Assembly: GCA_002356455.1 (NCBI GenBank)
Contig: AP017968.1
Location: 2,666,001-2,730,000 of the forward strand
Direction of reading: 5' to 3'
DNA from: Fusobacterium varium
Lineage (GTDB): Bacteria; Fusobacteriota; Fusobacteriia; Fusobacteriales; Fusobacteriaceae
DNA length: 64,000 nt
How positions within the stretch are numbered: the stretch's first letter is position 1; the number at the start of each line of letters is the position of its first letter. This document shows, piece after piece, positions 40,626 through 62,617 of the stretch. The position numbers and the translations under genes were made by a program. The notes under the pieces are model-generated. The model worked only from the letters and a program-made list of their open reading frames with translations, did no database searches and was not told where the DNA came from.

Positions 40626-41963
40626 TTAATTTTTAAAAGAAAATCTCATCTTATAATTTTTAGCAAATTCACAAATAAATATTAAAAATATACTTGTAAA
40701 TAATCCCAGTACTGTTCCTACACCTAAAAATAAAATTATTGGTTTTCCAGAATTATTTATTTCTACTGGTGTCAATATTTTTATCATATCCCCATATTTC
40801 ACTTCATAAAATTCTTTATTTATATTATTTGTATCTTCTATTACTTTATTTAATCTATCTGCTAACAAATTTATATTTTCATTTATTGCTTTATTTTCTT
40901 CTTCAGTAGGGTACACAATTTTTAATATTTCTTCTTCTTTAAATTTTATCTCATACTCTACATTTTTTATAGAAGTATTAACAAGAAGATATTTTTCAAT
41001 CAATTTTGAATAATATTCATTTTCAGTTTCTAATTTAATTCCCATTTCTCCCATAGAAGGAACTACAATTTGTCTATTTATTGGTTTATATTCATCTAAT
41101 ACATTTCTTATTACTTTTGACTCTCCAATTAATTTTTCTCTTTTTAAATTAAGAAGTTTTATATCAGCTCTAAGTTTTGTTTCTCTTGTATTTTTAGAGT
41201 TTGATAATCCTTTTATATCCAAAAAAGATTCTAATTTTTTTAACTCTATATTTTGGAGATTATCCAGTCTGTTGTTCAATTCATTAAATGAATATCCTAA
41301 AGTTTTTGAATAATAATTCATTTTATCATCTACAGAAAAATTAAGTTTTAAATTTTTAATTTTTTCATTAAATAATAAAATATAATCATCATAATCATAG
41401 GCTGTACTTACTTTTTCCATAAATAAAATTTCACTTTTAGGTTTATATTTATTTTCAAATTCTTCTACTACACCAATTGAAAGTTTTTCTAATATCTCTT
41501 TATTCATTTCTTTTAATTTTATTTTATACTGTGTAGGATAATAACTTAATATTTCTCCTTTCTTTAAAGCACTTTCTATTTTTTGTGAAATATTATTAGG
41601 TACTATTCCATCAATACTCAATGAATTTCTAAAATCTGCAAATTCTTTGGCTTTTATTTTCTCATTTTTAAATTCTGCAAATACAGAATTTAAAATATTT
41701 ATACTTACAAGATTGTCTTTTAAAAAAGGAGTTTTATCTGGATTTAGTCCTGTTTCCAGTTCAGGATAATTAAGTCCTATTACTACACTTGTTGTCATAT
41801 TTTTTTTGTTAAAAATATACCCAGCTATTCCTGAAATAAAAATAATTGATATTGTTACAGCTATCATCATTAATTTATGATTCAATAAAATTTTAATTAA
41901 TTCCATCAAATCAATTTCTTCATCTTCTTGATTTTGATAAACTCTTTCTTCTAATTGATTCAT
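40626..41963 (-). CDS. Wzz-type chain-length determinant protein 1
   Basis: A 445-aa inner-membrane polysaccharide co-polymerase. N-terminal acidic segment EEIDLMELIKILLNHK, TM1 at ~30-50, a long periplasmic helical part, Pro-containing TM2 near the C-terminus (KPIILFLGVGTVLGLFTSIF). Wzz proteins set O-antigen or capsule chain length with a Wzy polymerase. No glycosyltransferases or wzy lie nearby. Divergent from wzz 2, with which it shares the start MNQLE. Confidence 0.8.
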   Translation of the reverse strand: MNQLEERVYQNQEDEEIDLMELIKILLNHKLMMIAVTISIIFISGIAGYIFNKKNMTTSVVIGLNYPELETGLNPDKTPFLKDNLVSINILNSVFAEFKNEKIKAKEFADFRNSLSIDGIVPNNISQKIESALKKGEILSYYPTQYKIKLKEMNKEILEKLSIGVVEEFENKYKPKSEILFMEKVSTAYDYDDYILLFNEKIKNLKLNFSVDDKMNYYSKTLGYSFNELNNRLDNLQNIELKKLESFLDIKGLSNSKNTRETKLRADIKLLNLKREKLIGESKVIRNVLDEYKPINRQIVVPSMGEMGIKLETENEYYSKLIEKYLLVNTSIKNVEYEIKFKEEEILKIVYPTEEENKAINENINLLADRLNKVIEDTNNINKEFYEVKYGDMIKILTPVEINNSGKPIILFLGVGTVLGLFTSIFLIFICEFAKNYKMRFSFKN

Positions 41964-42285: not shown

Positions 42286-43242
42286 ATGAATCAATTAGAA
42301 AAAAAAGAATATTACGAAGAAGACGAAATAGATATCTATGAACTAGTAGACATTATTATCAAAAGAAAGATATTAGTTTTAGTAATTTTTATTATTTGTT
42401 CTTTACTTGGATTAGGAGCTGCTTTTTTCGTTAGAAGCTTTAGACAGGATACTTTAGCATTAAAGTTTAATATTAACTATGCTAAACTTGAGAATAATTA
42501 TTTCTTTGCAAAATCTGGTTTAAATTTTACAAAAATAAATGTAGATAATATTCTAATTACTAATAAATATGTTGATGAATTCTTCAAACTGGAAAAATTA
42601 AATGAACTCTATTTAGAAAAAGTAAAAGAGGGAAACAGAAATGATTATTCAAGATCTAAATTTTTAAATGATATTCTAAAAGTTTCATTTAATAGAGATA
42701 CTAACAGCTATACAGTATCGGTCACTATGAAAAAAGATCAGGAACTTCAAAAAGACATATTAAATAAATACATTACTATTATAGAATCCCTTATCAATAT
42801 TCAGGTTGATGATGAAATAGAAAATAGATATACTTTTGTTGAGTCTGAAAATAGAATTTCAAGAGAAAAACTTAATAAAATTGAAAATAATATTAAAGAA
42901 ATACTTGAAAAAGAAAAAAATAATTTAAATAAAGATACTAATCTTAAAGAATTTATTGAATATACTAATCCTGTTTTATCTGTAGAAAGAGAAAAAGTAA
43001 CTAATTTATATAATCAAAGTTCTGAAATGCTTATTGGACTAAATGGACTAAAAAGAGATGATGAAATAAAAAATATAATCTCTTTAGACTCTTCTATTTA
43101 TGAAATAGAGACAAAAAGTAAAGCTAAGATGATTTTAGCAGTTGGAATTTTATTAGGAATAGTATTGGGAATAATGAGTGCTTTTATAGCTGAATTTATA
43201 GATAATTATAAAAAAAGAGCAATTGCTCTTATAAAAAAATAG
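42286..43242 (+). CDS. Wzz-type chain-length determinant protein 2
   Basis: A 318-aa relative of wzz 1 and 3: acidic N-terminus (EEDEIDIYELVDIIIKRK), TM1 (ILVLVIFIICSLLGLGAAFFV), a periplasmic helical region, TM2 (MILAVGILLGIVLGIMSAFIAEF) and a short basic tail. Monocistronic with its own promoter and terminator. Role in surface polysaccharide length control inferred. Confidence 0.8.
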   Translation: MNQLEKKEYYEEDEIDIYELVDIIIKRKILVLVIFIICSLLGLGAAFFVRSFRQDTLALKFNINYAKLENNYFFAKSGLNFTKINVDNILITNKYVDEFFKLEKLNELYLEKVKEGNRNDYSRSKFLNDILKVSFNRDTNSYTVSVTMKKDQELQKDILNKYITIIESLINIQVDDEIENRYTFVESENRISREKLNKIENNIKEILEKEKNNLNKDTNLKEFIEYTNPVLSVEREKVTNLYNQSSEMLIGLNGLKRDDEIKNIISLDSSIYEIETKSKAKMILAVGILLGIVLGIMSAFIAEFIDNYKKRAIALIKK

Positions 43243-43353: not shown

Positions 43354-46300
43354 TTAAATCTTACTTACATCAAATACATCTAATTTTGCTTCATCTACAT
43401 GTCTATCCTGCATTCTAAGTATAGCACTAATTGTATCTAAAGATGTTAAAACTTCCACTCCATATTCTATTGCTGTTCTTCTCATTTTGAATCCATCTCT
43501 TTGAGCATCATTTGCTTTTGTTGGTGTATTTATCAGTAGATCTACTTCTCTATTTTTCAATATATCTGATATATTTGGTGATGGTTCATCTATTTTATTT
43601 ACTATTGTTGCCTCTACTCCATTTTCTGCCAAGAATTTCTGTGTTCCTTTTGTTGCATATAGAATTGATCCATGCTCAACTAAACTTTTGGCTATTGGCA
43701 AAAATTCCTCTTTATCTTTATCTCTGATTGTCACAAGTATTTTTCTGTCTTTTATAATATGTACTCTCTTTGCTCCTAACAGCCCTTTATAGATAGCTTC
43801 ATCAACATTATTTCCTACTCCCAATACCTCTCCTGTTGATCTCATTTCTGGTCCTAATGATACTTCTACACTCGATAATTTTTCTGTTGAGAATACTGGT
43901 ACTTTTACTGCTACTACATTTGGTTTCTTATAAATTCCTGTTCCATATGCCATATCTTTAAGTTTTTCTCCCAAGGCTACTCTTGTTGCTATTTCAATAA
44001 CTGGTACTCCTGATACTTTTGAAATATATGGAACTGTTCTTGATGATCTTGGATTTACTTCTATTACATAAAGTTCATTTTCATATGCAATAAACTGAAT
44101 GTTCATCATTCCTTTTACTTCCAGAGCCTTCGCTATTTTGTAAGTTATTTTAAGTATTTTATCCTCTGTTCCTTCATATAGATTTTGTTGAGGATAAATA
44201 GTAATTGAATCTCCTGAGTGAACTCCAGCTCTTTCCAGATGCTCCATTACTCCTGGGATAAGTACTTCTTCACCATCGCACACTGCATCTACTTCCAATT
44301 CTATTCCATTTAGATATTTATCTATCAATACTGGATTTGAAGGATCTCTGTCAAATGATGCTTCTAAATATTTTACTAGATTGTACTCATCATGACAGAT
44401 TTCCATTCCCTGTCCTCCAAGTACATATGATGGTCTTACTAATACTGGATATTTTATCTCATTTGCTATTTCTATTCCATGAGCTACATCCCATACTGCT
44501 CTTCCTTTTGGTCTTGCTATATTTAAAACCTCCATCATTTCTTCAAATCTTTCTCTGTCCTCTGCTTCATCTATTTTGTCTGCGCTTGTTCCTATGACTT
44601 TGATTCCTCTGTCGCTCAAATCATTTGCTAATTTGATTGCTGTCTGTCCTCCAAATTGAAGTATTACTCCTTCTGGTTTCTCTTTTTCAAGTATATTCAT
44701 TATATCTTCTGTTACCAGTGGTTCAAAGTATAGTTTATCTGCTGTTGAGAAATCTGTTGATACTGTTTCTGGATTATTATTGATTATTATACTTTCTATT
44801 CCTAACTTTTTCAATGTCTTTACTGCATGAACTGTACAGTAATCAAATTCTATTCCCTGACCTATTCTGATTGGTCCTGAACCTATTACTACAATTTTTC
44901 TTCTATCAGATACTTCCACTTCATCATATTGATCATATGTTGAATAATAATATGAAGATGAAGCTTTAAATTCTCCAGCACAAGTATCTACCATTTTATA
45001 TACTGGTAATATATGATGTTCTTTTCTCTTAGAAGTTATATCTTCTTCACTTATTCTCATTAATTCAGCAATACCTTTATCTGAGAATCCTTTCTTTTTA
45101 AGTTTTCTTAGATATATTTCATCTAAATCTCTAAGAGACATTCTTTTTACTATTTCCTCTTGTTTTACAATCCACTCAATTTTTTCCATAAAGAATTTAT
45201 CAATTCCTGTTATCTTTTGCAGTTTTTCTTTGATATACCCTCTTCTCAGCATTTCTGCAACTATAAAGATTCTTTCATCATCTGGTTTTACTACTGCTGC
45301 TTTTAATTCTTCCATAGTCATTTTTTTAGCTACTGGATGTTCTAAGTTATATCTTCCAATTTCCAGTGATCTGATACCTTTCAAAAATGCTGCTTCAAAG
45401 TTATTCCCTATTGCCATAACTTCTCCTGTTGCCATCATTTTTGTTCCTAATCTTCTGTTTGCCTTTTTAAATTTATCAAATGGCCATTTAGGTATTTTTA
45501 CAACAATATAGTCTATTGTAGGATCAAAGCAAGCATAAGTAGTTTGAGTTGCTTCATTTACTATTTCATTGAGAGTATACCCCATAGCCAGTTTTGTTGA
45601 CACTCTTGCTATTGGATATCCTGTTGCTTTAGAAGCTAATGCTGATGATCTTGATACTCTTGGATTAATCTCTATTATTGCATATTCAAATGATTTTGGA
45701 TGCAGAGCAAACTGCACATTACATCCTCCAATAACACCAACTTCATTTACTATTTTCACAGCTGAGGCTCTAAGCATTCTGCATTCCTTGTCAGATAAAG
45801 TTTGTGTAGGGGCAACAACTATTGAATCTCCAGTGTGGATTCCTACTGGATCCACATTTTCCATGTTACATACAACTATAGTATTTCCATTTTTATCTCT
45901 TATTACTTCATATTCAATTTCTTTCCATCCATAAATAGATTTTTCAAGCAAAACTTGACCTACCATTGACAATGAAAGCCCTTTCATTAGAATGTCTTCC
46001 AGTTCATTTGGATCATTTGCTATTCCACCGCCAGTTCCTCCAAGTGTGTAAGCAGGTCTTACAACTACTGGATATCCTATTTCTCTAGCTACTTCAAATC
46101 CTTCTTCAAGACTTTCAACAATTTTACTTTGAATAATAGGTTCTCCAAGTTTATTCATAGTTTCTCTGAAGATTTCTCTGTCTTCTCCTTTTTTTATAGC
46201 TTCCACAGATGTTCCTATTACTTTTACTCCATATTTTTCAAGAATACCTTTTTCATGTAATTCAACCACCATGTTCAGACCAGTCTGTCCTCCCATTCCT

Positions 46301-46560
46301 GCAATTATAGAATCAGGTCTTTCTTTGGCTATCACTTTTTCAACAAAATCTGCTGTAATTGGTTCAATATATATTCTGTCAGCTACTGCTTTATCTGTCA
46401 TTATTGTTGCTGGATTAGAGTTTATAAGTACAACCTCTATTCCCTCTTTTTTTAGAGTCTCACAAGCTTGAGTTCCTGAATAGTCAAACTCTGCTGCCTG
46501 TCCTATTATGATTGGTCCTGAACCTATTACTAATGTTTTTTTTATAGACTTATCTAACAT
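43354..46560 (-). CDS. carB: Carbamoyl-phosphate synthase large subunit, copy 1
   Basis: A 1068-aa synthetase subunit with two ATP-grasp halves ([23 protein letters not shown] and [23 protein letters not shown]) and a C-terminal MGS-like allosteric domain. It makes carbamoyl phosphate from ammonia, bicarbonate and two ATP. It is full length and, on sight, intact. The second copy is at 58086-61292; long nucleotide tracts are nearly identical, while the central linker and N-terminal half differ. It lies 10 bp after carA copy 1, whose glutaminase site is degenerate. Confidence 0.96.
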
Positions 46561-46570
46561 TTTTCCCCTC

Positions 46571-47713
46571 CTAATTCAGATATCCTTCTGCTGCCTCAAT
46601 ATCTTCAGCTTCAAAGTTTTCATCATATTCACTGCTGTGCTCATCATCAATACCTTGTGTATTTACCCCATTTTCAATTAATGATAAAAAGTCTGTAAAC
46701 ATATTATTTGAATCTTCTGTACAAAGGTCTGGCATAAATTGAATTCCCATAGCTGCAAGAGTATCACATCTGAATCCTTCTATTGTTTTATCATTTAGGT
46801 TAATATGTGTAGCCTCAGAATATATTCCTAATTTCTCTATTGAATATCCATGATTTTGATCTGTTATATATATTTTATTTCTTTTTAAATCCTCTACTGG
46901 ATGATTTGATCCTCTATGTCCATTTTTCATCTTTTTTATACTTCCACCTAAAGCTAAATTAAGAAGCTGTGCTCCTAAAGATATTCCAAGCACAGGAACA
47001 TTTGCCAAAGTTCCTCTCACTGTTTTCACTATCTGCACCATTTCATCTGGATTTCCAGGTCCACTTGAAATAATCAACCCATCAAGATTATGCTTCAATA
47101 ATTCATTTGATGAAGTATTATAAGGAAATACAGATACAGCAAATCCCATTTTTTCAAGTAAATCTAAAGTACTTCTTTTTACTCCTAAGTCTAATACTCC
47201 CATTTTTAAACCATTTCCACCAATTTCAATTATGCCTTTTCTGCTTACTTGTTCTGCTGCATTTTCACAAGAAAAATTATCAAATCTTTCTTTTAATTCC
47301 TTATGAGTTAATTCTTTATCTGTAATAATAGCCTTCATTGAACCATTATCTCTTATTATTTTAGTTAGTTCTCTAGTATCTACTCCTTTAAATCCAACTA
47401 CATTATATTGACTTAAAAAACCTTCTAAAGTCATTTCACATCTGAAATTATTTGGAAGTTTTGCATCTTCTTTTATAATAAATCCTTTCAAATGTATTTT
47501 ATCTGATTCCATATCCTCAAGATTTAGACCATAGTTTCCTACCATTGGATAAGTCATAACAACTATTTTTCCATAAAAAGATGGGTCAGTTAAAACTTCC
47601 TGATAACCAGTCATTCCTGTAGTAAAGACTATTTCTCCTGTTGTTTCCCCAAAATGTCCAAAAATCTTTCCATCAAAACTCATACCATTTTCTAGAATAA
47701 GCTTTCCTTTCAT
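46571..47713 (-). CDS. carA: Carbamoyl-phosphate synthase small subunit, copy 1, glutaminase site lost
   Basis: A 380-aa CarA homologue. The fold is intact ([46 protein letters not shown]), but class I amidotransferase residues are not. Aligned with copy 2 position by position, the nucleophile Cys245 is Ser (GISLGAQ), His248 is Ala, His327 is Met and Glu329 is Asp (QFMPDL). It also carries a ~30-residue acidic C-terminal tail ([18 protein letters not shown]). Human CPS I likewise replaces this Cys by Ser and uses free NH3. It is therefore probably a structural subunit of an ammonia-dependent synthetase. It lies behind a leader ORF and attenuator. Confidence 0.9.
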
Positions 47714-47725
47714 CTTACCTCCTCT

Positions 47726-47758
47726 AAAAAAAAAGATATAACTATAAAAGTTATATCT
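47726..47758 (-). terminator. Attenuator in front of carAB operon 1
   Basis: A perfect 10-bp stem AGATATAACT / AGTTATATCT (47758-47749 with 47743-47734) with a 5-nt loop and a nine-T run on the minus strand, followed at once by the carA ribosome site. The stop codon of the leader ORF abuts the stem with no gap. Confidence 0.85.
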
Positions 47759-47899
47759 CTATAATAAAAAAATTAAATTACAATCATATAGTGTAAAATT
47801 AGAAAAAATTTTTCTTAAATAAAATTTAAAAAGTGAATAAAAAAAATTTGGTATAAATATCTGCTCAGTGATTTCCCTTGATATTTTTTCCCTTTTCAT
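47759..47899 (-). CDS. Leader ORF of carAB operon 1 (46 aa)
   Basis: Starts with ATG 47899 after AGGAGG and ends with TAG at 47761-47759, immediately before the attenuator stem. The product starts MKREKISREITEQ and becomes Phe/Leu/Ile/Tyr-rich because the RNA has several U-tracts. E. coli pyrBI has a 44-codon leader with U-tracts where UTP shortage pauses RNA polymerase so that the ribosome can block the terminator. The same layout is seen here; mechanism is inferred. Confidence 0.7.
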   Translation of the reverse strand: MKREKISREITEQIFIPNFFYSLFKFYLRKIFSNFTLYDCNLIFLL

Positions 47900-47928: not shown

Positions 47929-47957
47929 ATTATAACGATTTTTCACTAATTTGTCAA
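47929..47957 (-). promoter_or_regulatory. carAB operon 1 promoter
   Basis: Perfect TTGACA (47957-47952), 17-nt spacer, perfect TATAAT (47934-47929). Start near 47922. Confidence 0.9.
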
Positions 47958-48083: not shown

Positions 48084-49289
48084 ATGTTTAAATTAGAAAG
48101 TATTAAAAAAGAACTTTATGCTGTTGAAGATACTTACAAGAAAGATATTGAAACTGTTTGTGACTATATTTTTAAGAATCCAGAACTTGGAGAAAAAGAG
48201 TTTCTTTCTTCAACATATCTTATAGATCTCTTAAAGAAAAATAATTTTTCTGTAAAAGAAAACTATTGTGGTCTTCCTACTGCTTTTAGAGCTGAATATG
48301 GTGATAATGACGGTCCAAGTATAGCTTTTTTAGCTGAATATGATGCTCTTCCTGGATATGGCCCCGACAAGGTACCAGGACATGCCTGCGGCCATAACTG
48401 GATAGCTGCTGGAACTTATGGTGCTGCTCTTGTTTTATCAAAATTTAAAAATAATTTCAAAGGCAAAGTAATATTGATAGGAACTCCAGCTGAAGAAACT
48501 TTAGGTGGAAAAGTAAACATGGTTGAGCAAAATGCCTTTGACGACATCGATATTGTACTTCAAATGCACTTGGAAGCTAATAATAATCTCAATTGTAAAA
48601 CTTTGGCTATTGACTGCATCAAATTTCAATTCACTGGCAAAGCTGCTCATGCTGCCGCCCATCCAGATGAAGGAATAAATGCTTTAGATGCTGTTCAGTT
48701 GATGTATAGTGGTATTAATTGTTTAAGACAGCACATAACTTCAGATTCAAGAATTCATGGTATTATTACAAGTGGTGGAGATGCTCCTAACACTGTTCCT
48801 GATTTTGCTGAATGTAAATTTCATATTAGAGCAAATGACAGAGGTTATTTAAACTCCCTTACTCAAAAAGTTATTAATTGTGCAAAAGGTGCCGAACTTA
48901 TGACTGGTGCTGTTTTGAAATATGAAAAATATGAAAATTCATTTGATAATCTTTTGAATCTTCCATCTCTACAGGATTTAATGAGAAAAAATCTTATAGA
49001 AGTTGGTGTGAGTAATTTTCTTGATGAAAAACATGGAGCTAGTGGTTCTTCTGATATTGGAAATGTCAGTCAAGTGTGTCCTACTATGTATACAGAACTG
49101 GCTCTTAATATTGATGAAGTATGTTTTGTTCATGATGAAGCATATTTAAAATATGTAAATTCAGATGAAGCATATGATAAACTTCATAAATCTGTAAAGG
49201 CTATGACTGGAACTGCTTTAGAACTTTATCTTGAACCTGAATTATTAAAAGTTGTTAAAGATGATTTTAAAAAGTTTAAAAGAAACTAG
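48084..49289 (+). CDS. M20-family amidohydrolase (AbgB/ACY1L2-like)
   Basis: A 401-aa zinc amidohydrolase of the subgroup that includes AbgB. Motifs: AFLAEYDALPGYG, GHACGHNWIAAGTYGAA and GTPAEETLGGKV; a dimerisation insert beginning FTGKAAHAAAHPDEGINALDA; and GSSDIGNVSQVCPTMY. It cleaves amino-acyl or p-aminobenzoyl-glutamate-type amide bonds in the cytosol. Distinct from the three M20 copies at 24-31 kb. It has its own start (TGGAGGG) and no partner in this operon; the YfcC gene downstream has separate control. Confidence 0.85.
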   Translation: MFKLESIKKELYAVEDTYKKDIETVCDYIFKNPELGEKEFLSSTYLIDLLKKNNFSVKENYCGLPTAFRAEYGDNDGPSIAFLAEYDALPGYGPDKVPGHACGHNWIAAGTYGAALVLSKFKNNFKGKVILIGTPAEETLGGKVNMVEQNAFDDIDIVLQMHLEANNNLNCKTLAIDCIKFQFTGKAAHAAAHPDEGINALDAVQLMYSGINCLRQHITSDSRIHGIITSGGDAPNTVPDFAECKFHIRANDRGYLNSLTQKVINCAKGAELMTGAVLKYEKYENSFDNLLNLPSLQDLMRKNLIEVGVSNFLDEKHGASGSSDIGNVSQVCPTMYTELALNIDEVCFVHDEAYLKYVNSDEAYDKLHKSVKAMTGTALELYLEPELLKVVKDDFKKFKRN

Positions 49290-49427
49290 TCTTTATCATA
49301 TAGGCATAGTCTTTAATTTTATTATACCTATATTTTATATTTATAAAAAAAATACATTTAATTAATTTATTATATTTTACTTTTTACCTATGTTGACGTA
49401 TAATCAGCCTTATAAAAATAAAAAGAA

Positions 49428-49592
49428 AGATAGAGGTGCAGAAAACATTAGTATGATCATTTAGTCTGGCAGACATTGAGATGATCAGAAAGGGGATTTT
49501 GCCGAAATGAAAGAAAATGCTGGAATTCTTTTGTTGGGAGTATAAAAAATATTTATACTACTGTCATTGATTATTTCAATGGAGTGCTATCT
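49428..49592 (+). ncRNA. Lysine riboswitch (L-box)
   Basis: Conserved L-box elements occur in order: AGATAGAGGTGC (P1 5' and core), AGTATGATC, a hairpin GATCAT...ATGATC holding GTCTGGCAGAC, GAAAGGGGATTTTGCCGAA, CTGTCATTG, and TGGAGTGCTATCT closing P1 (AGATAG with CTATCT). This matches B. subtilis lysC segment by segment (GAUAGAGGUGC ... GAAAGGGGA ... GCCGAAG ... CUGUCA ... UGGAGGGCUAUCU). A terminator follows at 49643. High lysine should stop transcription of the YfcC-family transporter gene. Confidence 0.92.
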
Positions 49593-49642
49593 GTGATCCT
49601 GATCTATGTGCATTTTTGTATTGCATATAATTAAGTTTTTTT

Positions 49643-49677
49643 GTCACAGTTTAGTTCTTTAAACTGTGACTTTTTTA
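49643..49677 (+). terminator. Terminator of the lysine riboswitch expression platform
   Basis: GTCACAGTTT / AAACTGTGAC stem (49643-49652 with 49661-49670) followed by TTTTTT, 64 bp before the transporter start. Confidence 0.9.
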
Positions 49678-49740
49678 TTTTATAATTTTTTTCAAAAACA
49701 TATTTTTATATTAAATAAAAACATCTTGAGGGAGGAAAAA

Positions 49741-51147
49741 ATGTCAGAAAATACTACTAGAAAAAAATTTACAATGCCACACACTTATGTGATAATTGGA
49801 ATCATTCTTGTTATACTAACTATTTTAACTTATATTATACCAGCAGGTACATATGAAAGAGCTGTAGACCCTGTTTTAAACAGAACAATGGTTGTTCAGG
49901 GTTCATTCAAATATATCGAACAAACTCCTGTATCTCCATTCCATATGTTTATGGCAGTGGTAGAAGGATTAGTTTCTACTGCTGATATTATATTTTTCAT
50001 ATTCTTTGCTTATGGCTTTGTGTATCTTTTAATAAAAACTGGAGCATTTTATGGTTCTCTTGGTTCTCTTATTAAAAAATTCAATGGAAAAGAAACTATG
50101 ATATTTCCTATTTTTATGATAGTATTTGGTATCTGTGGCTCTACCTTTGGGCTTTATGAAGAAACTTATGGACTTCTTCCAGCTTTCATGGGAATATCTG
50201 TAGCCTTAGGGTATGATGCTTTAGTTGGTGGAGCTGCAGTTATCCTTGGTACAGCTACTGGATTCGCTGCTGCTACTCTTAATCCATTTACAATAGGAAT
50301 TGCACAAGGAATTGCAGAACTTCCTATTGGTTCTGGAATTGGTTTAAGAATTATATGTTTTATTGTTTTTCAAGGAAGTGCAATCATTTATCTTATGCTT
50401 TATGCAAGAAAAGTAAGGCTGCATCCAGAACTTTCAATTGTTAAAGATGTTAAATTTAATTTTTCAAATGGTATGAATCGTGAAGAGATGGAACAGCTTC
50501 CTTTTAATGGAAAACATAAACTTATCATGCTGCTTTTTGTTGTAACTATAGCTTTGCTTGTATATGGCACAAGTCAGCTCGGGTGGTATCTGAATGAACT
50601 TTCTACTCTCTTCTTTATTATGATGATAATTACTGGATTAGTAGGGGGCTATAACTTCAGTCAAATAGCTTCTCTTTTTATAGAATCAGTTTCTGATGTC
50701 ATATTTGGAGCAATGGCAGTTGGAGTAGCAAGATCACTTACTATTGTAATGGAAAATGGACATATAATTGATACTATAATTAATTTTATGGCTAGTACAC
50801 TTTCTACTATGCCTAGAACTATTGCTGCTGTTGGAATGGTGGTTGTACAAAATTTCATCAATTTTTTCATACCTTCAGGTTCAGGACAGGCAGCTACATC
50901 TATGCCTATCATGGCTCCTTTGGCAGATGCCATTGGACTTACAAGACAGACAGCTGTGCTTGCCTTCCAATTCGGAGATGGTTTCTCTAATATGTTTTGG
51001 CCTACATCAGCAGCTACTGTCTGTGGACTTATGAGTCTTCCAATAGAAAAATGGTATAGATTTATCACTCCATTATTTTTATTTATGTTCCTGCTGCAAA
51101 TTATATTTATGGTTATAGCAGTAGCAATTAATTATGGACCATTTTAA
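49741..51147 (+). CDS. YfcC-family transporter, probable lysine (or related) permease
   Basis: A 468-aa inner-membrane protein with ~12 helices of the YfcC/DcuC-like group (signatures LTYIIPAGTYER, FFAYGFVYLLIKTGAFYG, GSTFGLYEETYGLLPAFMG, IPSGSGQAATSMPIMAPLAD, GDGFSNMFWPTSA). Members are annotated as dicarboxylate or basic amino acid carriers. The start is ATG 49741 after GAGGGAGG. Placement behind a lysine riboswitch strongly suggests uptake of lysine or a lysine precursor. Ends in a terminator at 51161. Confidence 0.85.
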   Translation: MSENTTRKKFTMPHTYVIIGIILVILTILTYIIPAGTYERAVDPVLNRTMVVQGSFKYIEQTPVSPFHMFMAVVEGLVSTADIIFFIFFAYGFVYLLIKTGAFYGSLGSLIKKFNGKETMIFPIFMIVFGICGSTFGLYEETYGLLPAFMGISVALGYDALVGGAAVILGTATGFAAATLNPFTIGIAQGIAELPIGSGIGLRIICFIVFQGSAIIYLMLYARKVRLHPELSIVKDVKFNFSNGMNREEMEQLPFNGKHKLIMLLFVVTIALLVYGTSQLGWYLNELSTLFFIMMIITGLVGGYNFSQIASLFIESVSDVIFGAMAVGVARSLTIVMENGHIIDTIINFMASTLSTMPRTIAAVGMVVVQNFINFFIPSGSGQAATSMPIMAPLADAIGLTRQTAVLAFQFGDGFSNMFWPTSAATVCGLMSLPIEKWYRFITPLFLFMFLLQIIFMVIAVAINYGPF

Positions 51148-55493: not shown

Positions 55494-56306
55494 TTATTTT
55501 ATTCTGTCAATTTTCAGCATATTTTTCAAAGTATATTTTTCCCAAAATTCATATAAAAAAATTACTATTATTCCTAATATTATTCCACAAAAATTTATCA
55601 TTAAGAATTTTGATATAAAATTATCTTTTTCTTCCATAATTATAGAATCCACTTCTATCATATTTTCATATTTTCTTTGAAGTTTTAGCCCTGTAAGTAT
55701 TTTTAAATATTCTAAATCCTTATCCATAAATTTTTTTAATTCTTTTTTTCTGATAATATCCGTGGTCTTAGCTGCCTCTAAAGAAAGTACTTCAATATTT
55801 TTTATTATATTCTTTTCTTCTGCTATAATTATTTTTTCTATTCTTTCTGTTATATATTTATTTATTTCAAATAATATATTATCTTTTTCATTAAATAATT
55901 TTTCTCCATTTTCACTTTTTAAAGAATACATAATATTTTCTTTTTTTAAATTTCTTATCTCTATTATATTACTTCCCAAATCATATTCTTTTACATCTTC
56001 TATAATAAAATTATCTTTCTGTATTTTATCTTGTTTTATATATTGGGATATATTTTCTATATTCAATTGTGGAAATATAAGTCCTGATTCCTTGAATAGT
56101 TTATCTGATACTATTTTTTCTTTTCTTATATGAAACTTTATATCTAAAATATTTTTTCTGCTTTTATAATGAAAATATCCCAATATTACACTTATAACAA
56201 AAATTATAGAAATAATTAAAAAAAATACTCTTTTTCTTTTAAAAAAAATATCTGCAATTTCATAGATATCTATTTCTTCTTCATTTTCTATTTTATCTTT
56301 CTCCAT
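55494..56306 (-). CDS. Wzz-type chain-length determinant protein 3 (short)
   Basis: A 270-aa protein with the same plan as the other two Wzz-like genes: acidic EEEIDIYEIADIFFKRK, TM1 (RVFFLIISIIFVISVILGYF), periplasmic helices and TM2 (MINFCGIILGIIVIFLYEFW), then a basic tail. It is shorter than usual for Wzz. ATG 56306 with GGGG upstream is preferred over the frame start at 56330. It lies between recombinase-like sites 2 and 3. Confidence 0.72.
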   Translation of the reverse strand: MEKDKIENEEEIDIYEIADIFFKRKRVFFLIISIIFVISVILGYFHYKSRKNILDIKFHIRKEKIVSDKLFKESGLIFPQLNIENISQYIKQDKIQKDNFIIEDVKEYDLGSNIIEIRNLKKENIMYSLKSENGEKLFNEKDNILFEINKYITERIEKIIIAEEKNIIKNIEVLSLEAAKTTDIIRKKELKKFMDKDLEYLKILTGLKLQRKYENMIEVDSIIMEEKDNFISKFLMINFCGIILGIIVIFLYEFWEKYTLKNMLKIDRIK

Positions 56307-56873
56307 TGATGACCCCTTATTCACTTTCATTTTTTGCTAAAAAATTCATTCTAATCCTTTTTACTGTTTTCTAATATTTAAAAATATTATTTATAAATTT
56401 ACATTCCATCTGGCTATTTTAAAATTATTTTTCAATCATAACTATCTCTTTTCCAGAAAAAATTCAATTTATAAAAGTGTTCTTGTTTATGTATAAAAGA
56501 GAACTTTTTTATATTTTTTATCTGTTTCTAAAAAACTCTTTAAATGATTTTTTTCTTCTTTAATACGTTAAAATTTTATCTTTTTATAAAAAATAAAAAT
56601 TGATTATTTTATTTTTTCATGATATATATTACTTATTAGGAATAAAGGCATTTTTAGTATTTTTTATTCTAAATTATATGTACGTCTTTATACATAAAAA
56701 AGAACTCTAGTTTTTTTACTTTAATTTTCTAGTTTTTTAAAATTCTTTTTTCTATTCTTTTCTCTTTATCCTTTTCGTTTTTTATTTCACTCTGCTTAAC
56801 TCCTCTTAACTATTAATTTTCTATAATTTTTTCTATAATAATAATTATAAACTTTTCAGTTAAGGAGACAATA
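56307..56873. repeat. Intergenic region with recombinase-like sites 3 and 4
   Basis: 567 bp of AT-rich DNA. Site 3 (56478-56505) is TGTTCTTGTTT-ATGTAT-AAAAGAGAACT and site 4 (56679-56706) is TGTACGTCTTT-ATACAT-AAAAAAGAACT, both in the orientation of site 2. Outer arms and 11-6-11 layout match sites 1 and 2, but spacers differ. No ORF otherwise; several TATAAT strings lie just before the repA-like gene. Confidence 0.55.
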
Positions 56874-58085: not shown

Positions 58086-61000
58086 TTAAATCTTACTTAC
58101 ATCAAATACATCTAGTTTATCTTCTTCAATATGTCCATCCTGCATTCTAAGTATAGCATTAATTGTATCTAAAGCTGTCAATACATCTACTCCATACTCT
58201 ATTGCTGTTCTTCTCATTTTGAATCCATCTCTTTGAGCATCATTTGCTTTTGTTGGTGTATTTATCAGTAGATCTACTTCTCTATTTTTCAATATATCTG
58301 ATATATTTGGTGATGGTTCATCTATTTTATTTACTATTGTTGCCTCTACTCCATTTTCTGCCAAGAATTTCTGTGTTCCTTTTGTTGCATATAGAATTGA
58401 TCCATGCGCTATCAAACTCTTAGCTATTGGTAAAAATTCCTCTTTATCTTTATCTCTGATTGTCACAAGTATCTTTCTGTCTTTTATAAGATGTACTCTG
58501 TTAGCTCCTAGCAATCCTTTATAAATAGCTTCATCAACATTATTTCCTACTCCCAATACCTCTCCTGTTGATCTCATTTCTGGTCCTAATGATACTTCTA
58601 CACTCGATAATTTTTCTGTTGAGAATACTGGTACTTTTACTGCTACTACATTTGGTTTCTTATAAATTCCTGTTCCATATGCCATATCTTTAAGTTTTTC
58701 TCCCAAGGCTACTCTTGTTGCTATTTCAATAACTGGTACTCCTGATACTTTTGAAATATATGGAACTGTTCTTGATGATCTTGGATTTACTTCTATTACA
58801 TAAAGTTTATGTTCATATGCAATAAACTGAATGTTCATCATTCCTTTTACTTCCAGAGCCTTCGCTATTCTCTTAGTTATTTCTAAAAGTTCAGCTTCTG
58901 TTCCTTCGTATAAGTTTTGCTGAGGATAAATAGTAATTGAATCTCCTGAGTGAACTCCAGCTCTTTCCAGATGCTCCATTACTCCTGGAATAAGTATATC
59001 TTCTCCATCACATATAGCATCTACTTCCAATTCTATTCCATTTAGATATTTATCTATCAATACTGGATTTGAAGGATCTCTGTCAAATGATGCTTCTAAA
59101 TATTTTACTAGATTGTACTCATCATGACAGATTTCCATTCCCTGTCCTCCAAGTACATATGATGGTCTTACTAATACTGGATATTTTATCTCATTTGCTA
59201 TTTCTATTCCATGAGCTACATCCCATACTGCTCTTCCTTTTGGTCTTGCTATATTTAAAACCTCCATCATTTCTTCAAATCTTTCTCTGTCCTCTGCTTC
59301 ATCTATTTTGTCTGCGCTTGTTCCTATGACTTTGATTCCTCTGTCGCTTAAATCATTTGCTAATTTGATTGCTGTCTGTCCTCCAAATTGAAGTATTACT
59401 CCTTCTGGTTTCTCTTTTTCAAGTATATTCATTATATCTTCTGTTACCAGTGGTTCAAAGTATAGTTTATCTGCTGTTGAAAAATCTGTTGATACTGTTT
59501 CTGGATTATTATTGATTATTATACTTTCTATTCCTAACTTTTTCAATGTCTTTACTGCATGAACTGTACAGTAGTCAAATTCTATTCCCTGACCTATTCT
59601 GATTGGTCCTGAACCTATTACTACAATTTTTCTTCTATCAGATACTTCCACTTCATCATATTGGTCATATGTTGAATAAAAATATGAAGAATCTGCAGCA
59701 AATTCCCCAGCACAAGTATCTACCATTTTGTATACTGGCTCTATATGGAGATATTTTCTTTTTCTTTCAATATCTTTTTCAGTAACTCCCATTAAAGAAG
59801 CAATTCCTTTATCTGAGAATCCTTTCTTTTTAAGATTTCTTAAATATGTTTCATCTAAGTTCTTAAATTCTGTATCTTTTAAAATTTCTTCCTGCTTAAC
59901 AATCCACTCAATTTTTTCCATAAAGAATTTATCAATTCCTGTTATCTTTTGCAGCTTTTCTTTGATATATCCTCTTCTCAGCATTTCTGCAACTATAAAG
60001 ATTCTTTCATCATCTGGTTTTACTACTGCTGCTTTTAATTCTTCCATAGTCATTTTTTTAGCTACTGGATGTTCTAAGTTATATCTTCCAATTTCCAATG
60101 ATCTGATACCTTTCAAAAATGCTGCTTCAAAGTTATTCCCTATTGCCATAACTTCTCCTGTTGCCATCATTTTTGTACCAAGTTTCTTATCAGCTTTTTT
60201 GAATTTATCAAATGGCCATTTAGGTATTTTTACAACTATATAATCAAGAGCAGGTTCAAAGCAGGCAAAAGTTTTTCCAGTTACTTCGTTCTTTACTTCA
60301 TCCAGCAAATATCCCAATGATAATCTTGTTGCCACTCTTGCTATTGGATATCCTGTTGCTTTAGAAGCTAATGCTGATGATCTTGATACTCTTGGATTAA
60401 TCTCTATTATTGCATATTCAAATGATTTTGGATGCAGAGAAAATTGTACATTACATCCTCCTATAACCCCTATTTCATTTACTATTTTGATAGCAGAAGT
60501 CCTAAGCATTTGATACTCTCTGTCAGATAAAGTTTGAGAAGGTGCAACAACTATTGAATCTCCAGTGTGAATTCCTACTGGATCAATATTTTCCATATTA
60601 CATACTGTTATACAATTTCCATCTTTATCTCTTATTACTTCATATTCAATTTCTTTCCATCCTAAAATAGATTTTTCAATAAGAACTTGTCCTACTCTTG
60701 ATAAAGCTAGTCCTTTCATAAGTATATCTTCAAGCTCTTTAGGATTATATGCAAATCCACCACCAGTTCCTCCAAGTGTATAAGCAGGTCTTACAACTAC
60801 CGGATATCCTATTTCTCTAGCTACTTTAAATCCATCTTCAAGATTTTCAACAATTTTACTTTGAATAATAGGTTCTCCTATTTTCTCCATAGCTTCTCTG
60901 AATAGTTCTCTGTCTTCTCCTCTTTTTATGGATTCAATAGGTGTTCCTATTACTTTTACCCCATATTTTTCAAGAATACCTTTTTCAGATAGTTCCACAG

Positions 61001-61292
61001 CCATGTTTAATGCTGTCTGCCCTCCCATTCCTGCAAGAATAGAGTCAGGTCTTTCTTTGGCTATCACTTTTTCAACAAAATCTGCTGTAATTGGTTCAAT
61101 ATATATTCTGTCAGCTACTGCTTTATCTGTCATTATTGTTGCTGGATTAGAGTTTATAAGTACAACCTCTATTCCCTCTTTTTTTAATGTTTCACAAGCT
61201 TGAGTTCCTGAATAGTCAAACTCTGCTGCCTGTCCTATTATGATTGGTCCTGAACCTATTACTAATGTCTTTTTTATAGACTTATCTAACAT
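58086..61292 (-). CDS. carB: Carbamoyl-phosphate synthase large subunit, copy 2
   Basis: A 1068-aa enzyme, same length and architecture as copy 1 (two ATP-grasp halves, oligomerisation linker, MGS-like allosteric domain). The linker region ([23 protein letters not shown], then [17 protein letters not shown]) and scattered N-terminal positions differ from copy 1. The stretch around 59018-59650 is almost identical at the DNA level to 44286-44920, including synonymous sites. Paired with a CarA that keeps its catalytic residues, so this is the ordinary glutamine-dependent synthase. Confidence 0.96.
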
Positions 61293-61316: not shown

Positions 61317-62369
61317 TTAACCTTCTATAACTTGCAAGAAATCATCAAATAAATAATCAGAATCAGATGGTCCAGGCCAAGCTTCTGGATGATATTGTAC
61401 ACACATTATTCTCAATTCATTACTTTTCATTCCCTCAATAGAATTGTCATTCAGGTTTATATGAGTCACTTTCATAGCTTCTGGTACATTATCTACAACA
61501 TAACCATGATTTTGTGATGTTATAAATATTTTATTTTTTTCTAAATCTTTAACTGGATGGTTACATCCTCTATGTCCATATTTTAACTTAGTTGTTGATC
61601 CACCTAATGCCCATGCTAAAAGCTGATGTCCCAAACATATCGCAACTATTGGAAGTTTTCCTACTATCTTTTTTATTTCATTTATTACTTCTGTAAGATC
61701 TGCTGGATCTCCAGGTCCATTTGAAAGAAATAGTCCATCAAGGTTATAGTTCATTATTTCCTCAGCAGTTGTATTCCAAGGGAAAACTACCATGTGACAG
61801 TTTCTTTTCTTAAAGCTTCTAAGTATATTTCTTTTGATACCAAAATCCATTACTCCAATTCTTTTTCCTGTACCTGGTATCTCATAAATTTCTTTTGTAC
61901 TTACTTTACTTACAGCATCTTTATTACAAAATTTTTCAAAATGTTCATCTATTTCTTTTTGAGTAAGGTCTTGAGAAGTAATTATAGCTCTCATAGCTCC
62001 CTCTTCTCTTATTATTTTTGTAAGCTGTCTTGTATCTACACCTTTAAATGCTACAACTTTATTTTGTCTTAAAAAACCATCTAAAGTCATTTCACATCTA
62101 AAGTTATTTGGAAGTTTTGCATCTTCTTTAATTACAAATCCCTTCAGATGTATTTTAGAAGATTCCATATCTTCTAAATTTATTCCATAATTCCCTATCA
62201 TAGGATATGTCATTACTACTATCTGTCCGCAATAAGAAGGATCTGTTAAAAGTTCCTGATATCCTGTCATTCCTGTATTAAAAACAAGTTCACCAACAGT
62301 TTCACCTAACTCTCCAAAAATCTTTCCTTCAAAACTCATACCATTTTCAAGAATAAGTTTTCCTTTCAT
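61317..62369 (-). CDS. carA: Carbamoyl-phosphate synthase small subunit, copy 2 (active type)
   Basis: A 350-aa glutaminase subunit. The triad is intact: Cys245 (AICLGHQ) and His327/Glu329 (QYHPEA). It hydrolyses glutamine and channels ammonia to CarB. It lacks the acidic C-terminal tail of copy 1. The start follows GGGAGG. It lies 24 bp before carB copy 2 and behind a leader ORF and attenuator. Confidence 0.96.
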   Translation of the reverse strand: MKGKLILENGMSFEGKIFGELGETVGELVFNTGMTGYQELLTDPSYCGQIVVMTYPMIGNYGINLEDMESSKIHLKGFVIKEDAKLPNNFRCEMTLDGFLRQNKVVAFKGVDTRQLTKIIREEGAMRAIITSQDLTQKEIDEHFEKFCNKDAVSKVSTKEIYEIPGTGKRIGVMDFGIKRNILRSFKKRNCHMVVFPWNTTAEEIMNYNLDGLFLSNGPGDPADLTEVINEIKKIVGKLPIVAICLGHQLLAWALGGSTTKLKYGHRGCNHPVKDLEKNKIFITSQNHGYVVDNVPEAMKVTHINLNDNSIEGMKSNELRIMCVQYHPEAWPGPSDSDYLFDDFLQVIEG

Positions 62370-62401: not shown

Positions 62402-62434
62402 AAAAAAGATACAACAGTTTGTCATACCTTTTTT
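62402..62434 (-). terminator. Attenuator in front of carAB operon 2
   Basis: On the minus strand AAAAAAGGTATGACA pairs with TGTTGTATCTTTTTT (15 bp including G-U pairs, 3-nt loop) and runs into T's. The leader ORF stop codon (62435-62433) overlaps the base of the stem. Confidence 0.8.
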
Positions 62435-62558
62435 AAGATAAATATATGTGAATTAATTTTAAAGACAATATTCCTATAAAAACTTTAAAAACAAATGTAA
62501 AAGAATTGAAAATAGAATCATTTATCTTCTTTAATGATAAAATTTTTATTCCTTCCAT
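62433..62558 (-). CDS. Leader ORF of carAB operon 2 (41 aa)
   Basis: Starts with ATG 62558 after AGGAGG and ends at TAA 62435-62433, inside the base of the attenuator stem. The peptide (MEGIKILSLKKINDS...) is unrelated in sequence to the leader of operon 1, but length, U-rich composition and stop/terminator overlap are the same. That points to translation itself, not the product, being important, as in pyrBI attenuation. Confidence 0.7.
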   Translation of the reverse strand: MEGIKILSLKKINDSIFNSFTFVFKVFIGILSLKLIHIYLS

Positions 62559-62588: not shown

Positions 62589-62617
62589 AGTATATCTATT
62601 TTTTCAAATTATGTCAA
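62589..62617 (-). promoter_or_regulatory. carAB operon 2 promoter
   Basis: TTGACA (62617-62612), 17-nt spacer, TATACT (62594-62589), minus strand. Confidence 0.85.

Follow-up and report, generated by a model that had tools for sequence, protein, structure and literature searches.

A glutaminase-dead carbamoyl phosphate synthetase of Fusobacterium varium and other anaerobes that probably runs on free ammonia

The review PMC6022934 describes the bacterial carbamoyl phosphate synthetase (CPS) as the glutamine-dependent CPS II. According to PMC6245113, glutamine hydrolysis depends strictly on Cys-269 and His-353, and the E. coli enzyme can be driven by ammonia only if its concentration is very high and probably beyond the physiological range. 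PMC4655335 reports that blocking or perforating the tunnel of the E. coli enzyme leaves its activity on external ammonia normal, and that human CPS1 has Ser in place of the Cys, its glutaminase domain being an inactive remnant. An ammonia-fed CPS is known from the vertebrate urea cycle and is not expected in bacteria; the CPS literature that we searched, with most subscription papers outside our reach, yielded no report of a bacterial CarA with a dead glutaminase. The PDB holds structures of the E. coli CarA mutants C269S (1c30) and G359F (1m6v), as given in their titles.

We analysed a stretch of 64,000 nucleotides of Fusobacterium varium DNA (contig AP017968.1), called the window here, which carries two carAB copies (Table 1). 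A sequence-only reading of it had claimed that the small subunit of copy 1, CarA1, has lost its glutaminase active site, and alignment with both E. coli CarA and CarA2 of the same window (58% identity) establishes that loss at the residue level: Cys245 is replaced by Ser, His248 by Ala, His327 by Met and Glu329 by Asp, the E. coli equivalents being C269, H272, H353 and E355. The CPS II residues Cys269, His353 and Glu355 are thus Ser, Met and Asp in CarA1. The tunnel of a CPS II is altered as well, P358-G359 of E. coli CarA having no counterpart in the aligned CarA1 and Y261/Q262 of CarB being replaced. We take the P358-G359 loop, G359 and the CarB Y261/Q262 face to line the ammonia tunnel, and Kim and Raushel reportedly described in 2004 a role of R265, P360 and H361 in its wall.

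CarA1-CarB1 therefore resembles E. coli CarAB in its two subunits, fold, operon order and CarB synthetase motifs, but differs from it in the missing nucleophile, catalytic His and Glu and P358-G359 of CarA1 and in the changed tunnel patch of CarB1. With human CPS1 it shares the change of Cys to Ser and a glutaminase domain that is present without its nucleophile; unlike human CPS1, it is bacterial, is encoded by separate ORFs for CarA1 and CarB1 rather than as a single chain, is more deeply eroded and sits in a pyrimidine context. Human CPS1 also keeps Phe-Gln and Arg in the patch, unlike CarB1, and the dead CarAs and vertebrate CPS I evolved independently. Two of the altered places in CarA1 are those changed in 1c30 and 1m6v, but these are engineered single changes, whereas CarA1 combines several fixed changes, accompanied by matching ones in CarB.

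Table 1. Features of the two carAB copies, in window positions
Feature	Position	Strand	Remark
carB1, large subunit of CPS with its synthetase motifs	43354..46560	-	1068-aa ORF
carB1 departures from canonical S/Y/Q	T252 45805-45807, C260 45781-45783, R261 45778-45780	-	
carA1, small subunit of CPS; glutaminase site dead	46571..47713	-	380-aa full-length ORF
carA1 changed codons	S245 46979-46981, A248 46970-46972, M327 46733-46735, D329 46727-46729	-	
carA1 terminator-like hairpin, then U run	47734..47758, U run 47726-47733	-	directly 3' of leader ORF; attenuator
carA1 leader ORF, 46 codons, U/Phe-rich, AGGAGG upstream	47759..47899	-	
carA1 promoter-like site TTGACA-17-TATAAT	47929..47957	-	12/12 consensus match
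carB2, partner of canonical type, 91% identity to CarB1	58086..61292	-	
carA2, canonical CPS small subunit (Cys/His/His/Glu)	61317..62369	-	
carA2 leader ORF, 41 codons, same architecture	62433..62558	-	
carA2 promoter-like site	62617..62589	-	

By both of its domains and by its predicted tertiary fold, CarA1 belongs to the CarA family. It matches PF00988 (171.4 bits) and PF00117 (111.3 bits) above cut-off, and it scores 367.7 bits against NCBIfam TIGR01368 (cut-off 307.35), a model that would probably label it, wrongly, as glutamine-hydrolysing. The predicted structure (pLDDT 86, pTM 0.86) superimposed on E. coli CarA with Z 46.5 and an rmsd of 1.7-1.8 over 344-345 residues; beyond residue 351 confidence was low and the tail unstructured. 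The earlier reading had listed an acidic C-terminal tail among the features of the protein. That tail (348-380) is confined to this genome, two orthologues having different tails and a third none, and together with its low model confidence this led us to reject it as a conserved feature.

The gene was also said not to be decaying, and its full length, intact predicted fold and constrained docking domain agree. We calculated pairwise dN/dS with our own Nei-Gojobori script for seven dead and seven canonical pairs. In the CarB-docking domain the dead pairs gave 0.016-0.084 and the canonical pairs 0-0.099; in the glutaminase domain the corresponding values were 0.112-0.288 versus 0.027-0.076. The glutaminase domain of the dead CarAs is therefore under partly relaxed constraint, yet it is held. 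The motifs SGPG, LG.Q and QNHG of the glutamine-binding neighbourhood are still there in the lineage with Ser.

We then looked across 98 Fusobacteriota genomes, 80 of which bear a CarA. Among the 92 CarA stretches read, four were fragments that could not be judged; of the 88 readable sites 79 were canonical and nine lacked the Cys. Orthologues of CarA1 within the genus were 88% (G027), 87% (G026) and 76% (G029) identical to it. The first two have the same Ser/Ala/Met/Asp set and G029 has the near-identical Ser/Ala/Leu/Glu, which argues against chance or sequencing error; the four proteins share the motifs SLGAQ and QF[ML]P[DE]. An alignment of fusobacterial CarAs had been expected to turn up this set, and it did so in three genomes, the other dead lineages having Val or Gly in place of the nucleophile: the motifs are GEVLG with QYMPD or QFMPD in G024, G033, G035 and G036, and GVGLG with QFNPE in G048. 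Changes unique to one strain and accompanied by relaxed selection had been named as signs that would speak against the reading; the changes recur in orthologues from three other genomes, and some relaxation is present in the glutaminase domain.

A dead CarA is the sole CarA in six of the 80 CarA-bearing genomes (G024, G029, G033, G035, G036 and G048), five of which are at least 99% complete and one (G033) 86%. A renewed search of G029 with CarA2 and CarB2 again returned one copy of each. In the window's genome (G000), G026 and G027 dead and canonical copies lie side by side, whereas G028 has the canonical pair and no dead copy, so that relatives have retained one copy or the other. In another genome of the sample (G067), a CarA (L167) lies inside a 1433-aa open frame that is probably a CarA-CarB fusion.

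The fusobacterial dead CarAs grouped together in the full CarA tree, from which 12 nearly identical fusobacterial rows, all from a single genus, had been left out along with 18 of the 29 clostridial loci L104-L132. They did not group in the docking-domain tree, additionally made without all 14 clostridial rows and seven distant rows, although the AU test does not reject a single origin (p 0.646). In the CarB tree (44 rows), which forces two changes, the partner of the G048 protein sits among the canonical CarBs of its own genus; G048 is therefore probably a second origin, and for the fusobacterial dead CarAs two origins are more likely than one.

The sequence-only reading had called the partner CarB intact. 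This holds for the synthetase motifs of CarB1, but not for the CarA-facing ammonia tunnel region, where it differs from canonical CarBs. The positions altered beside dead CarAs correspond to E. coli A253, D258, Y261, Q262 and R265, which are otherwise invariant in canonical fusobacterial CarBs. We compared 25 Fusobacteriaceae CarBs, 16 canonical and nine partners of dead CarAs: Tyr260-Gln261 (E. coli Y261-Q262) was present in all 16 canonical proteins and in none of the nine partners. Within residues 252-264, partners in the Ser lineage were changed at 4 of 11 canonical-invariant positions versus 14 of 419 elsewhere (p 0.0006), those in the Val lineage at 5 of 11 versus 14 of 419 (p 0.00004) and that of G048 at 3 of 11 versus 9 of 419 (p 0.002); since the patch limits were set after the changes had been seen, these p values are optimistic. 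Nine canonical control groups had 0 of 11 patch changes each, and the result stood when the G047 CarB, which has a 157-column gap, was left out (5 of 11 versus 34 of 514, p 0.0006).

At the DNA level carB1 and carB2 are 99-100% identical over nucleotides 1620-2250 and 76-82% in other blocks, while carB orthologues between species are about 90% identical over the same 1620-2250 stretch. This patchwork is best read as the trace of a recent gene conversion that would have bypassed a large part of the N-terminal half, the one facing CarA.

In clostridia we found two metagenome-assembled genomes with dead CarAs (L052 and L063). A sample of 150 genomes from the family of L063 gave 126 CarA stretches, 122 readable and four fragments, a count that leaves out one further fragment (G125). 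With "dead" meaning here that the Cys is absent and nothing more, 92 of the 122 were canonical and 26 lacked the Cys (23 Gly, 3 Ser). The remaining four (L106, L268, L274 and L278) keep the Cys with an altered or unreadable His or Glu and could be intermediates; L278 is possibly a truncated gene. Thirteen of 107 genomes had a dead CarA only, where "only" is weakened by unstated bin completeness, and 11 had dead and canonical copies; all 24 carry carbamoyltransferases. On the CarA tree of the clostridia 13 changes are required, three of them forced by starred branches. Tyr-Gln was missing from all five dead partners examined versus 4 of 23 readable canonical CarBs, in all four of which the pair reads HQ (Fisher p 0.001, uncorrected for kinship). 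Among CarBs beside other CarAs with canonical sites from the L052/L063 search, 10 of 27 readable ones lacked the exact Tyr-Gln, which is counter-evidence to the pairing of CarB with CarA changes.

Portions of PMC5021804 describe, ahead of the E. coli pyrBI genes, a leader peptide ORF that is translated up to a terminator. The carA1 leader has the same layout, an ORF with a ribosome binding site that runs into a terminator, and the claim that the carA1 promoter and attenuator are intact stood, with a 12/12 promoter match and both attenuator elements in place. Unlike the pyrBI leader, the Fusobacteriaceae leaders precede carAB and pyrBKDFCE. A terminator-like hairpin was found near carA in 49 of 51 Fusobacteriaceae upstream regions (0.01 in shuffles), and a hairpin plus a leader ORF of at least 25 codons in 45 of 51, including all nine dead carA genes; a leader ORF alone occurred at 0.23 in shuffles, which preserve base content only. 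No Rfam attenuator or riboswitch reached the gathering threshold before carA1. Leader ORF and terminator are arranged in the same way ahead of pyrB in G000, G028 and G029 (L098-L100), which links the dead copy to the control of pyrimidine synthesis. UTP may be the attenuation signal.

Each of the nine dead-CarA fusobacterial genomes has exactly one match to the carbamoyltransferase family PF00185, at 105-117 bits, and none in the 165-211 bit class of ornithine carbamoyltransferases (OTC); we accordingly rejected an arginine role in Fusobacterium. In G000, G028 and G029 this gene is the first of the pyrBKDFCE operon, the names of which we assigned from the character and order of the proteins. 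Carbamate kinase above cut-off was absent from all nine genomes and present in 19 of the 98 genomes of the phylum. In the six genomes that have a dead CarA only, no supplier of carbamoyl phosphate for pyrimidines other than CarAB is thus recognised; with one carbamoyltransferase and no carbamate kinase above cut-off, this CarAB must feed pyrimidine synthesis without a glutaminase of its own. These genomes lend good, if indirect, support to the earlier suggestion of an ammonia-dependent CPS, and the nitrogen source of the dead-only CarABs is most likely free ammonia. Glutamine synthetase (PF00120) is found in eight of the nine, so we rejected the idea that the glutaminase was lost because glutamine is no longer made. 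The ninth genome, G048 (L160), is 100% complete and has a dead sole CarA and no detectable glutamine synthetase.

We therefore propose that carA1-carB1 encodes a CPS that would no longer hydrolyse glutamine. CarA1, as its constraint and model support, would remain as the structural, docking subunit of CarB1, and CarB1 would combine bicarbonate with free ammonia, using two ATP, into carbamoyl phosphate. This would go to aspartate carbamoyltransferase (ATCase), the only carbamoyltransferase of the genome, and on to pyrimidines, under a U-rich leader attenuator like that of pyrB. Taken as a whole, we regard this explanation as highly probable. The ammonia requirement of E. coli CPS implies that the fusobacterial enzyme needs either high NH4+ or better ammonia access: amino-acid fermenters may keep ammonium high, or the CarB changes may lower the need. 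Direct entry of ammonia near CarB 252-264, through the patch change and the loss of the CarA loop, is suggested with moderate confidence. Also speaking against the explanation are the relaxed constraint on the glutaminase domain and the presence of glutamine synthetase in eight of the nine dead-CarA genomes, by which glutamine is not lacking.

The high ammonia need of E. coli CPS (PMC6245113) and the glutamine synthetase of these eight genomes would suit a separate glutaminase, or another docking amidotransferase, that hands ammonia over while CarA1 is a mere scaffold. We consider this unlikely, as the carAB1 operon holds no extra gene and the deleted CarA1 loop and altered CarB tunnel region make docking at the former site less likely. 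More doubtful still is the view that another pathway, such as arginine, hydrogenase maturation or O-carbamoylation, draws on a carbamoyl phosphate pool of its own, a version of which the sequence-only reading had entertained: although G000, G026 and G027 each carry two copies, we rejected it as far as carbamoyltransferases go because each dead-CarA fusobacterial genome has a single PF00185 match, an ATCase that lies in the pyr operon where this was read, and because both carAB copies and pyrB share one attenuator type. That CarA1 is a decaying duplicate, tolerated thanks to a CarA2 that also serves CarB1, would fit the faster evolution of its glutaminase domain, its unconserved tail and the absence of the copy from G028. 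We find it very hard to credit given the six genomes with a dead CarA only, the strong constraint on the docking domain, the leader ORF and terminator kept in nine of nine, and a CarB1 that is near identical to CarB2 over nucleotides 1620-2250 yet diverged in its CarA-facing part. Lowest in our estimation is a residual glutaminase activity of CarA1 through Ser245 or another residue. The SGPG, LG.Q and QNHG motifs that persist in the Ser lineage would allow it, but the His and Glu partners are also changed, the place of the nucleophile is taken by Val in the sister lineage and mostly by Gly in the clostridial ones, and human CPS1 with its Ser cannot use glutamine, as sections of PMC4655335 report.

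Beyond the proposed ammonia-fed CarA1-CarB1 of the window, we infer that the dead CarABs would be the same enzyme with another nitrogen donor, parallel origins and a CarB signature, apparently unreported. A wider and more tentative idea, to which we give somewhat less than even credence, is that bacteria have repeatedly made CarAB ammonia-only: the glutaminase would die, the CarA tunnel loop erode and the CarB face of A253, D258, Y261, Q262 and R265 change in parallel, opening a port for free ammonia at physiological levels. Such an enzyme would be the counterpart of CPS I among bacteria, marked by its own CarB signature, and several lineages of anaerobes from ammonium-rich habitats would have no other CPS. 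If so, nitrogen would enter pyrimidine synthesis at a different point in anaerobes of this kind, and glutamine analogues might fail to block the pathway in them. The dead CarABs offer replicate natural experiments on ammonia access without a glutaminase, so far studied by engineered mutants. Because family models name the dead CarAs glutamine-hydrolysing, metabolic models of these organisms probably carry a wrong reaction.

Other features of the window surround the two copies. A gene for an M20 amidohydrolase (48084-49289) adjoins one for a DcuC/YfcC-type transporter (49423-51147, +), directly preceded by a lysine riboswitch (RF00168, 126.5 bits); the pair also lies between two carAB copies in G026 and G027. 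Short proteins with similar, EEIDIYEL-like N-termini and transmembrane ends (40626-41963, 42286-43242 and 55494-56330), which we take to be Wzz-like, flank both carAB copies, and G026 and G027 have similar ones close to theirs. Beside carB2 is a gene for a RepA_N-type replication initiator-like protein (PF06970; 56874-57917, +), the place of which is taken by another gene in G026 and G027.
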